DNA of 64,000 nt from Rhodospirillaceae bacterium (GTDB taxonomy: Bacteria; Pseudomonadota; Alphaproteobacteria; GCA-2731375): NCBI GenBank assembly GCA_018660265.1, contig JABJKS010000031.1, forward strand, positions 62,001 through 126,000, in the 5' to 3' direction. Positions 7,656 to 57,662 of the stretch are shown in pieces. A program made the position numbers and the translations under genes. Positions within the stretch are counted from its first letter, which is position 1; every line of letters starts with the position of its first letter. The notes beneath the pieces were generated by a model that was given only the letters and a program-made list of their open reading frames with translations, was not told the origin of the DNA and did no database searches.

Positions 7656-7782
7656 ATATATACCTATCCAAGGATCAATCCGAACAGCATGTCCAAATAA
7701 CATACCCAAGTAGCATTTCTGGCCACCAGACGCACAGGTGATAATTAAGGAGACATTAACGAAACAAAAGGATACTGGGGTG

Positions 7783-51600: not shown

Positions 51601-52736
51601 ATGCTGGCGGCGCAAACCTATGACGGCCACCAATCCCTGCACGATGATGCCCAGGCACAAGGTCTTGGCTTTAAAGCCGCGCCCATAGAAGGGCCGACGC
51701 ATTTCAGCCAATTCGTGCCGTTGCTGCAAGATCTTTGGGTTATACCACCTTGCAATGATAGGGACCCATAGAGATCATCTCAGCAGTCCCTCGGGTAGGA
51801 GTGATGGTGCAGTCGATGTGGGATATCGTCAAGCCTTCACGACGCCCTCCGAGGGGCTGCTGAGATGACCCGAAGGGCGCATTTTGGGAGCTTTCGGATG
51901 GCGTCACGCGCACCTAACGATACACCGCATCGCGTCGGCGCACGCTCCTACCCGAAAACTCCCAATATGCGTCTCTAGGGGTCCCTATCATTGCAAGGTG
52001 GTATTATGCCTGGTTCGAGACCGGCTGCCTGTCGGCCCATTTCCGCACGATGGTGGTGGAGGGGGAGGAAGTCCGCGCATTTGTTGAACCCAGCAGCGCG
52101 GATGATGGCTTGGTGCGCATAGGTGCCGATAAGACGGATGGCGGGGAGGTCCTTCGTGGTACCGCGTCTGTTGGCGGGGCGGGGGAGACGGAGTTGGAAC
52201 GCCGTCTGGCGGGCCTGCGCCCGGCGGATAACCTCGTGATCCTCGAACATCTATCCGTTGGCCAAAAAGGTGCGGTGCCCGAAATGGTGCGCATGGATTT
52301 GGATCAGCATATGGGTGATCTCTATCCGTTTTCCCTGGCCGAAAAACTTGCAGTCATCACCGAAAACTCACCCTGGTACAGCGGTCCTTCACCCTGGGGC
52401 GGGGCCATTATTCCGTTGGAGATGGTCACGGTCCTGGCGCAATACACATCCCACAGTGCTGGGATGCAGGGCAAGGGCCCGGCCATTGGCCTATTCGCCG
52501 ATCTGGAAATCCGAATGCTCAAGGGCCCTCTGATGGTGGGGCGGGACTATTTGATAAAGCGGGAGATCGTTGCGCTGTCGGAAAGCCGACGGACGGAATC
52601 ATATTGGGTGCGCAGCCAGATCACCGACCCGGACACGGGTGATGTGCTGGCGGCGACGTTGCTGAACCATGCGGTGTTGAAGGCTTCGTATGCTGACTAC
52701 GCAGATGAATACACGCGTTTGACAGCCGGTACCTAA
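51601..52736 (+). pseudogene. Hotdog/MaoC-like domain protein, split by a MITE
   Basis: The 5' part (51601-51741, MLAAQTYDGHQ...EGPTHFSQFVPLLQDLW) and the 3' part (from about 52005, YAWFETGCLSAHFRTMVVEGEEVRAFVE onward to 52736) belong to one protein of about 290 residues, resembling double-hotdog dehydratase/thioesterase-like families. A 263-bp MITE separates them and brings stop codons. After removing the element and one plausible target duplication, the frames differ by one base, so a further small change has happened. The downstream part keeps good codon structure, which suggests recent damage. A start could also be TTG 51574. Confidence 0.75.
51742..52004. mobile_element. MITE, 263 bp, with 32-bp terminal inverted repeats
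   Basis: The left end ATACCACCTTGCAATGATAG continues to 51773. The right end (51973-52004) is its reverse complement with one mismatch (CCCATAGAG against CCCCTAGAG). Direct TTA or shorter flanks are consistent with a target duplication. The interior has a nested hairpin: TCATCTCAGCAGTCCCTCGG near 51775 pairs with CCGAGGGGCTGCTGAGATGA near 51850-51870. No transposase is encoded, so it is non-autonomous and would need a related element elsewhere. It lies inside the hotdog gene. Confidence 0.85.
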
Positions 52737-53782: not shown

Positions 53783-53825
53783 AGAGCCCCCACGCTGCCA
53801 GGGGAGGGACGGGCGTGGGGGCTCT
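53783..53825 (-). terminator. Intrinsic terminator after the Sel1-repeat gene
   Basis: On the minus strand AGAGCCCCCACGC (53825-53813) pairs with GCGTGGGGGCTCT (53795-53783) around a 17-base loop and is followed by TTCG. A 13-base-pair G+C-rich stem placed about 50 bases after the Sel1 gene stop fits a transcription terminator, although the T-run is short. It could also serve the radical SAM leader on the same strand as an insulator. Confidence 0.75.
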
Positions 53826-53873: not shown

Positions 53874-54617
53874 CTAGCGGCGATCCCGCCCAGTCTTGAC
53901 GCGGCCACCGCGGCCTACGCGTTCGACCTCAACTTCTTCCGTAACTTTGGAGACGACCGCCGCCCGGGCATTGGTATTCTGGACAGGCGCGGCAATTTTC
54001 TTGGACTGATTGCCTTTTGATTTCAGGAACGCAGTACCGGTCTTGCCGGAGCTCATGAAAAACCAGGCGCGAGACAGGGCCAGGTTCCGTTCAACCATGC
54101 GACCGTCGCGGAAGGCGGCAGCCAGGGCGTATTGTGCGCTGGCATCACCTTGTTCAGCTGCCTGACGCCACCATTTAATCATGCGATCAAAATCGCGCGG
54201 TACGCCGGCACCTTGCATATACAAATTGCCCAGCCAAAATTGCGCACTCCGGTGGCCGCGATCAGCGGCTTGTTTCAACCAATAAGCTGCTTCGGCCAGG
54301 TCTTCCCTGTTGCCGCGAACCGTGGCCAACAGAACGGCCAATTCGTGCTGTGCGTTTATATTGCCCCGTTCGGCAAGAACGCGGACTGTGGCCAGATGGC
54401 TCGTGGGGGCCAGATCTTCCTGATCCAAAGAGGCCAGAACTTCCAGAGCGACATCGGCGCGGGCCAGGGCGATTTCCGCCCTTGCGGTACCGATTACATT
54501 CAGACTTAAAACAACAGCGGTCACGCAGGCCAGGATTACGTGGCTCAGGCATGACGCAGACACAGTATCGCTGCGGGAGAGAGAACAGGTTTTGGCGCTA
54601 AATATTGCCGTAAACAT
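53874..54617 (-). CDS. Exported Sel1-repeat protein under c-di-GMP riboswitch control
   Basis: A 247-residue protein with a signal peptide (SHVILACVTAVVLSLNVIGTARA). Two or three Sel1-like repeats follow at about residues 85-200 (INAQHELAVLLATV, SAQFWLGNLYMQGAGVP, SAQYALAAAFRDGRMV). They form TPR-like solenoids that usually mediate protein contacts. The C-terminus is basic (GRGGRVKTGRDRR). Relatives occur in polysaccharide and motility regulation (for example ExoR-like and Alg-type proteins), but a specific role cannot be assigned. A class I c-di-GMP riboswitch ends 14 bases before its ATG, and AAAAGGG between them is the likely ribosome-binding site. Confidence 0.85.
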   Translation of the reverse strand: MFTAIFSAKTCSLSRSDTVSASCLSHVILACVTAVVLSLNVIGTARAEIALARADVALEVLASLDQEDLAPTSHLATVRVLAERGNINAQHELAVLLATVRGNREDLAEAAYWLKQAADRGHRSAQFWLGNLYMQGAGVPRDFDRMIKWWRQAAEQGDASAQYALAAAFRDGRMVERNLALSRAWFFMSSGKTGTAFLKSKGNQSKKIAAPVQNTNARAAVVSKVTEEVEVERVGRGGRVKTGRDRR

Positions 54618-54631
54618 CGCGTAGCCCTTTT

Positions 54632-54735
54632 CGGTAACCCCGCTATCCGCTCGCCAAATGAATGTCTGGCCAGACGGACCGGTGGTTTTGCGTCCCGCCG
54701 TTTCCGACGGTTTGCCATTTCGTGGTCGCTTACCG
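54632..54735 (-). promoter_or_regulatory. Class I cyclic-di-GMP (GEMM-I) riboswitch upstream of the Sel1-repeat gene
   Basis: On the minus strand the conserved core reads AATGGCAAACC, stem CCGTCG with GAAA tetraloop and CGGCGG, then GGGACGCAAAACCACCGG, and after a hairpin (GTCTGGCCAGAC) the 3' element ATAGCGGGGTTACCG. These match the GEMM-I consensus, including the GNRA tetraloop, the CAAA/GGGACGCAAA junction and the terminal TAGCGGGGTTACCG seen in the Vc2 aptamer. The closing stem P1 is CGGTAA (54735-54730) with TTACCG (54637-54632). Only 14 bases separate it from the start codon, so control of translation initiation is likely. Confidence 0.9.
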
Positions 54736-54894
54736 CATAACGCGGTGTTTGATCAATGTAGCTATCGGATATTAACAAGGCCTTAATGGAATAGGTTGAT
54801 CGGGTTAATTTTTGTCCAAAAGTAAAATTATTTTCTGTTTCGGCCCACTTTTCTGTGCCTGACGGGGTGCTCATTTTGGTTAATTGAGCTGAAA

Positions 54895-56532: not shown

Positions 56533-57351
56533 TTATCCGTCGAACAGGCTGAGGATCCTGGCGGGGCTTGAATTGGCTATGCCTAGGCTGATAGCGCCCA
56601 AAGCCTGTTTGATCTCGCTCGATTTCAGGGCAGCACTATCGGCGGCCAAATCGGCATCGACTAAGTTGCCAACACCAGCGGCAATCGTATCGTTTTGCAC
56701 GCCCAGATACTCGTTGTGGGTCTCAATCCGGTTGGCGGAACTACCCAGATTTGCCAACTTGCCGGATGCATCGGTGATGGCCGCATCCAGTGCCGTTAAC
56801 GCCGATGCGGCGTTCCCCGCATTATCCAGGGTTTGGCCGCCCAAGCCGAGGCCGCCACTGGACAGATCCTGGGCCGCGACTTTGATCGTTGCGCCGCTGT
56901 CATCGCTTAATACGTTCTGGTCCGAGGCACCGGCTGCGATCAGGTTGCTGCCCGCAAAAGACGCGCTGTCGTTAATGGTGGTGACCTGCTCCCGCAAGGA
57001 ATTGAAGGCGGAATTCAGGGCATCACGGGATGACTGATCCAACCCTTCTTGGCTGGCCTGGACTGCCAGGCCTTTCAATTCCACCAGGATATCGGCCGTC
57101 GCTTCCCCGGCCGCAAGGGCCACATCAACAGTGGCGGAGGCCCGGGACAGACCATCACGGACGGCATCTGTGCCCGCGTAGGTGGACAGCAATTCCTGGG
57201 CAATGGCCAGCGTGGCGGCATCATCCTTCGGGCTGTTGACCTTTTTGCCGGTCGAAATATGGTTTTGAATTTTGTTCAGATTGTTGTTGGTATCTGAAAA
57301 TTTCTGCAACGCGGTGGCCGCGCTGCTGTTCGTATTGATGGATAAAGCCAT
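56533..57351 (-). CDS. Flagellin
   Basis: A 272-residue flagellin. The conserved D0/D1 N-terminal coiled-coil (SINTNSSAATALQKFSDTNNNLNKIQNHISTGKKVNS) and the C-terminal helix (LGAISLGIANSSPARILSLFDG) are present. The central domain is short (DSASFAGSNLIAAGASDQNVL), as in small alphaproteobacterial flagellins. Conserved TLR5-contact residues of gamma-proteobacteria are not kept. It is exported by the flagellar type III apparatus. A strong AGGAGGAG at 57368-57361 follows the riboswitch and lies 9 bases from the ATG. No other flagellar gene is in the window. Confidence 0.95.
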   Translation of the reverse strand: MALSINTNSSAATALQKFSDTNNNLNKIQNHISTGKKVNSPKDDAATLAIAQELLSTYAGTDAVRDGLSRASATVDVALAAGEATADILVELKGLAVQASQEGLDQSSRDALNSAFNSLREQVTTINDSASFAGSNLIAAGASDQNVLSDDSGATIKVAAQDLSSGGLGLGGQTLDNAGNAASALTALDAAITDASGKLANLGSSANRIETHNEYLGVQNDTIAAGVGNLVDADLAADSAALKSSEIKQALGAISLGIANSSPARILSLFDG

Positions 57352-57368
57352 CTTATGCGTCTCCTCCT

Positions 57369-57485
57369 GAGATAACTCCGCTATCCTTTGACCTGCATCA
57401 TACTGATGTTTTTCTGGGTCAGTTAGGACCGGTAGTTTTGCGTCCCGCCGTTACCGACGGTTTGCCATTTCTTGGTTCGCACCCC
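57369..57485 (-). promoter_or_regulatory. Class I cyclic-di-GMP (GEMM-I) riboswitch upstream of flagellin
   Basis: The minus-strand core AATGGCAAACC is followed by stem CCGTCG-GTAA-CGGCGG (a GNRA tetraloop, one G-T pair) and GGGACGCAAAACTACCGG, and the 3' half of P3 is seen as GGATAGCGGAGTTATC. The core is nearly identical to the copy at 54632, differing mainly in the tetraloop (GTAA against GAAA), the loop of P3 and the P1 strands. P1 is weaker here (GGGGT with ATCTC). The aptamer ends exactly where the AGGAGGAG ribosome-binding site of flagellin begins, which favours translational control. Confidence 0.9.
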
Positions 57486-57662
57486 TGAATACTACAAGGG
57501 ACGGTAACGCTATCCGGGATATGTTAAGAAAAGGTTAATGTTCTGAATTATGGCAAAGGCTGATAATCGGGAGATTTCATCGCCCGTGGGTGCGATGGGG
57601 CTATATCCCTGGGGACACTGGCGCTACACTGGAGGGCAAAATAAGTGGAAGAGGCGGGGGCT

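Follow-up and report, generated by a model that had tools for sequence, protein, structure and literature searches.

We identified a c-di-GMP-I riboswitch immediately upstream of a gene for an exported Sel1-repeat protein, and we consider it likely that this element controls translation of the protein, with an OFF switch being proposed. In a search with Rfam covariance models across the window (the whole 64-kb stretch of DNA that was analysed), the aptamer was located on the minus strand at positions 54629-54725 by both RF03167 (62.9 bits, E 1.7e-12) and RF01051 (66.9 bits). The gathering cut-off of RF01051 (35 bits) was exceeded by this copy and by a second copy linked to a flagellin gene, and that of RF03167 (59 bits) was exceeded by the Sel1-linked copy. 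The same search gave no aptamer match in 14 control genomes, and therefore the match at the Sel1 gene is far beyond chance. Thus, the earlier note's proposal of a c-di-GMP riboswitch ahead of this gene was borne out, and, judged from its sequence, the feature is a c-di-GMP-I riboswitch with predicted ligand binding. In Vc2, the ligand is contacted by G20, A47, and C92 (PMC4744006); alignment with Vc2 placed the corresponding bases of the Sel1 aptamer at 54715, 54689, and 54634, respectively, and all three were kept in 8/8 Sel1 copies. The start codon of the Sel1 gene (ATG, 54617) lies 12 nt downstream of the aptamer, and the Shine-Dalgarno sequence AAAAGGG (54625-54631, minus strand) starts 3 nt after C92. 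This adjoining arrangement of aptamer and Shine-Dalgarno sequence was shared by virtually every member of the five gene classes described below. As no terminator fits in the 12 nt between the aptamer and the start codon, translational control is the natural reading.

The structure of the leader was examined together with its relatives, using 19 Sel1 and flagellin leaders. The Vc2-like P1 pairs of the Sel1 aptamer are formed by the 5' CG (54722-54721) with C93-G94 (54633-54632); this CG/CG pairing was present in 19/19 leaders, two of which, the flagellin copies of G000 and G007, carry a compensatory A-U, and P2 and P3 were paired in 98-100% and 94.7% of cells, respectively. A different P1, CGGTAA (54735-54730) with TTACCG (54637-54632), had been put forward in the earlier note and was rejected, because it conflicts with the ligand-bound Vc2 fold: it would pair the ligand-contacting C92, together with C93, with the 5' flank. 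Moreover, its 5' strand falls mostly inside an upstream hairpin (P0, 54746-54732) of the predicted fold, and no genome other than this one has the pairing, apart from a partial version in its nearest relative, G007. The accompanying claim that P1 is stronger at the Sel1 copy than at the flagellin copy is likewise unsupported. Outside P1, RNAalifold recovered unprompted a closing helix, GCG (54727-54729) with CGC (54619-54621), which spans 54619-54729 on the minus strand, encloses both the aptamer and the Shine-Dalgarno sequence, and was paired in 96.5% of cells. The CC facing the GG of the Shine-Dalgarno sequence was paired in only 79% of cells, and every departure was unpaired. This outer helix was absent from the leaders of the CheY-like and 76-aa genes. 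Covariation support in the Sel1 and flagellin leaders was modest because most pairs hardly vary. When 5' and 3' flanks were swapped within a class as a test of P1 specificity, equally good duplexes were obtained; the complementarity thus holds at the class level only, and specific covariation of P1 is weak. The P0 hairpin itself (ACCGC-GUUAU-GCGGU, 54732-54746, minus strand) belongs to the predicted fold, and nearly all Sel1 and flagellin leaders had a hairpin at this position, with stems that differed in sequence and class mean z values of -1.8 and -1.9, respectively. P0 probably lies close to the transcript start.

The two leaders in the window are also preceded by similar promoter elements. 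The CtrA consensus is TTAAN7TTAAC. Upstream of the Sel1 leader, a CtrA-like box, TTAAGGCCTTGTTAAT (54771-54786, minus strand), departs from this consensus by one mismatch, and a tentative -10-like element, GCTACATT (54755-54762, minus strand), lies 18 nt downstream of the box's first half; we take it to be -10-like from its resemblance to alphaproteobacterial -10 boxes. The box before the flagellin gene, TTAACCTTTTCTTAAC (57523-57538, minus strand), matches the consensus exactly. The shorter motif TTAAN7TTAA was found at three sites in the window (0.38 expected), two of which precede the two switches; the third exact site (7745-7759) is away from any riboswitch. Of 43 leaders, 15 contained TTAAN7TTAAC with no more than one mismatch and 40 with no more than two, compared with 0.17% and 2.9% of random windows from the same loci, respectively, although these leaders are related rather than independent, and the raw counts overstate the evidence. 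In flagellin leaders, the box lies 53-64 nt before GGCAAA. The genome encodes a CtrA protein (NF045991, 424.8 bits; cut-off 350). CtrA control of flagellin has been described in a Rhodobacterales species, in which fliC expression was down 64-fold among CtrA-phosphorelay mutants (PMC12363192). The best reading of these sequences is that transcription is driven by CtrA and translation is controlled by c-di-GMP, most likely as an OFF switch.

The Sel1 and flagellin switches are members of a larger set. The covariance-model search of the whole genome revealed five c-di-GMP-I switches, located before the genes for the Sel1 protein, flagellin, a CheY-like regulator of 136 aa, a 76-aa protein, and a 56-aa protein. 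The 76-aa protein (L078:3824-4054, G000:C40) and its relatives are conserved and carry a fixed C-terminal AVDSDTG motif; the 56-aa protein (L077:3856-4026, G000:C31) and its relatives are likewise conserved (MLSSISFMFDTYWTLWTTLFPSIPFWSPHGAVM...) and have a hydrophobic stretch. Each has its own switch, and neither matched a Pfam or NCBIfam family. The switch was present in 15/15 genomes of the GTDB family, with two to five copies each, versus 34/386 genomes across the class, and most copies in the 15 family genomes belong to the same five gene classes. Widening the search to the order yielded no genomes beyond these 15. Class-wide, the c-di-GMP-I switches often precede genes for ParA-like ATPases (SQKGGSGKTT), not flagellin (loci L118, L120, L123, L125, L126, L128, and L134 of other Alphaproteobacteria). 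Named records exist for close relatives and describe metagenome-assembled Alphaproteobacteria or Rhodospirillaceae, and the isolate names suggest a marine origin.

In 8/11 genomes of the genus (G000, G001, G003, G004, G007, G008, G009, and G010), the switch lies upstream of a Sel1 orthologue, 11-12 nt from its start codon; the Sel1 gene is frameshifted in G001. In four of these (G000, G004, G007, and G010), the Sel1 switch and a flagellin switch are separated by about 1 to 2.7 kb, and in the other four flagellin was absent from the stretch retrieved around the Sel1 switch. In G002 and G006, only a switchless Sel1 paralogue was found, and G005 has no close Sel1 homologue. Among the genomes sampled, close relatives of the Sel1 protein were limited to the genus. 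Five paralogue loci (L088, L089, L096, L097, and L098) gave no Rfam match; four of them were taken into the protein tree, where they and the switch-bearing proteins formed separate groups (support 0.98). Because the switch has been kept in eight genomes and its presence or absence matches the protein tree, the suggestion that the Sel1 protein is a member of the c-di-GMP regulon gained support, and we regard this membership as likely. The five genes under the switch probably form a set related to swimming.

The proposed mechanism would proceed as follows. A CtrA-like regulator, as the conserved boxes and the CtrA gene in the genome suggest, would drive a short leader transcript, which folds into the aptamer recognized by the covariance models, its 3' end running directly into the Shine-Dalgarno sequence. 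At high c-di-GMP, C92 and the P1 pairs (C93-G94 with the 5' CG) would lock together with the GCG/CGC closing helix around the Shine-Dalgarno sequence, and the locked leader would block ribosome loading, giving a translational OFF switch. With flagellin, the CheY-like regulator, and the two small proteins under the same switch, the Sel1 protein would be made in the low-c-di-GMP, motile phase. The OFF direction is favored because of the geometry, the precedent of Vc2, and the flagellar partners, which recall Cd1. In thermodynamic modelling, the accessibility of the Shine-Dalgarno sequence differed little between the free and the aptamer-forced ensembles. The opposite direction, a translational ON switch, would require that in the ligand-free leader the GG of the Shine-Dalgarno sequence pairs with C92-C93 in a CC-GAAAA-GG hairpin, and that c-di-GMP takes C92 and thereby frees the Shine-Dalgarno sequence. 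Such a hairpin did appear when several leaders, the Sel1 leader studied here among them, were folded to minimum energy without constraints; however, it consists of only two base pairs, and the flagellin copies with U at position 92 would have weaker pairing. Furthermore, flagellin and CheY partners are usually repressed rather than induced by c-di-GMP, and both Vc2 and Cd1 are OFF switches (PMC9262584). We therefore consider an ON switch unlikely.

The gene under this putative OFF switch (53874-54617, minus strand) encodes a protein of 247 aa with Sel1 repeats (PF08238, E 9e-18; 64.5 bits versus a gathering score of 30.7), an N-terminal hydrophobic stretch ending in ARA/AQA in the alignment, and a conserved C-terminal GGR. 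Three known families with Sel1 repeats were considered and rejected: MotX (NF047621), with 27.5 bits versus a cut-off of 330 and a match confined to residues 105-167; ExoR (NF045484), with 24.5 bits versus 450; and AlgK, with 28.2 bits versus 700. The protein resembles MotX, a flagellar protein, and ExoR, a regulator of exopolysaccharide production, in the repeats only. Since MotX and ExoR were matched only weakly, we can only guess at a role as flagellar accessory or periplasmic regulator; our most likely guess is a scaffold or regulator that is used in the periplasm during motility. A role in surface attachment within the c-di-GMP regulon had also been suggested. The protein is exported and Sel1 repeats also occur in exopolysaccharide systems, to which the weak AlgK and ExoR matches would point, but the scores lie far from the cut-offs of both models, and the switch and promoter box are common to the Sel1, flagellin, and CheY-like genes. 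With such partners, a function in the motile phase is more likely, and we regard an attachment factor as rather improbable. A terminator-like hairpin, GAGCCCCCACGC...GCGTGGGGGCTC (53784-53824, minus strand), could be read in the sequence after the Sel1 gene and before a radical SAM gene, and part of it was flagged in a further analysis as well. Elsewhere in the window, a MITE-like element (51742-52004) whose near-perfect terminal inverted repeats are 33 bp long seems to split a reading frame that resumes at about 52005, and it has matches at about a dozen places in the genome.

The second switch of the window, at 57368-57476 on the minus strand (RF01051, 60.4 bits), precedes a flagellin gene (56533-57351, minus strand; 272 aa; PF00669, E 2.5e-26; PF00700, E 4.3e-11). 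The distance of 2.7 kb given previously between the two aptamers is correct, and their description as near-identical is roughly right: identity was 91% over the gap-aligned core, and 77 of 96 aligned positions agreed over the full Rfam spans, with different P3 loops. Each copy was nearer to its own-gene counterpart in G007 (core identities of 0.947 and 0.925). In the aptamer tree, copies grouped by downstream gene, with those of Sel1 and flagellin mixed together at low support, and the two classes were each other's nearest. The local duplication inferred in the earlier note is thus plausible as an event, but a recent one is unlikely given the clustering according to downstream gene, and the divergence predates the split of the genus. 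The two aptamers likely share an old common origin.

The most interesting part of the finding is the contrast between these sister switches at position 92. This position was C in 32/32 copies linked to the Sel1, CheY-like, 76-aa, and 56-aa genes, and U in 8/11 flagellin copies, namely the one studied here (57372) and those of G002, G003, G005, G006, G007, G011, and G012 (Fisher p 1.1e-6, with relatedness ignored). Outside the five classes, U92 was found in two of seven readable copies, so U92 is not unique to flagellin; the class-wide loci had C92 in all copies readable by eye. Class I switches invariably conserve A47, with lower conservation at G20 and C92, and mutations in the pocket raise the KD (PMC9049102). 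The flagellin aptamer is therefore predicted to bind more weakly, and an altered ligand choice at this copy is possible but unsupported. That the Sel1 aptamer, though real, recognizes a different cyclic dinucleotide or no longer binds is very improbable: the base at position 92 is variable in the family, c-di-AMP is bound by a G20A/C92U aptamer (PMC7288161), and c-AMP-GMP variants are marked by a single pocket base (PMC9481103), but the core is conserved, none of the eight Sel1 copies departs from the canonical contact bases, and the genome has 11 GGDEF domains. Accepting c-di-GMP as the predicted ligand, the Sel1 switch (C92) would respond at a lower c-di-GMP level than the flagellin switch (U92). 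We tentatively propose, as a possibility somewhat short of an even chance, that the two switches share a CtrA-like promoter and have thresholds set by this base, tight at C92 and weak or changed in ligand at U92, such that, as c-di-GMP rises, flagellin would be shut off later than the Sel1 gene and, probably, later than the CheY-like gene and the genes for the two small proteins. If true, this would represent a natural, evolutionarily kept affinity ladder within one riboswitch regulon, and the C92/U92 split offers a direct and inexpensive way to ask whether the response order of the genes in one riboswitch regulon is tuned by single pocket bases.

A partial literature search turned up no description of c-di-GMP riboswitches preceding flagellin or Sel1 genes in Alphaproteobacteria. 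The present set would place an uncharacterized family of exported Sel1 proteins and two small proteins without names alongside flagellin and a CheY-like regulator in a c-di-GMP- and CtrA-linked group, in a family of uncultured marine Alphaproteobacteria in which every examined genome carries the switch. Regarding classification, four of the genome's five switches scored highest with RF03167 (c-di-GMP-I-GGC) among the Rfam models; however, the consensus of this model has G at the position of A47, and all five switches have A. They were therefore filed as c-di-GMP-I (RF01051). We infer that GGC in the name denotes the contact bases, with the G at A47 naming the variant. Among known systems, Cd1 of Clostridioides difficile, which lies before the flagellar operon, is likewise a c-di-GMP-I aptamer on flagellar genes and turns them off (PMC4744006, PMC9262584), but it acts by transcription termination, whereas the Sel1 switch has no terminator in the 12 nt before its start codon. 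Vc2 of Vibrio cholerae, a translational OFF switch with P1 as its key element (PMC9262584), has the same aptamer core and contact bases as the Sel1 switch. It belongs to another organism and gene; in the Sel1 switch, the Shine-Dalgarno sequence follows the aptamer directly inside the GCG/CGC closing helix, and, unlike Vc2, the Sel1 and flagellin pair described here has CtrA-like boxes in common.
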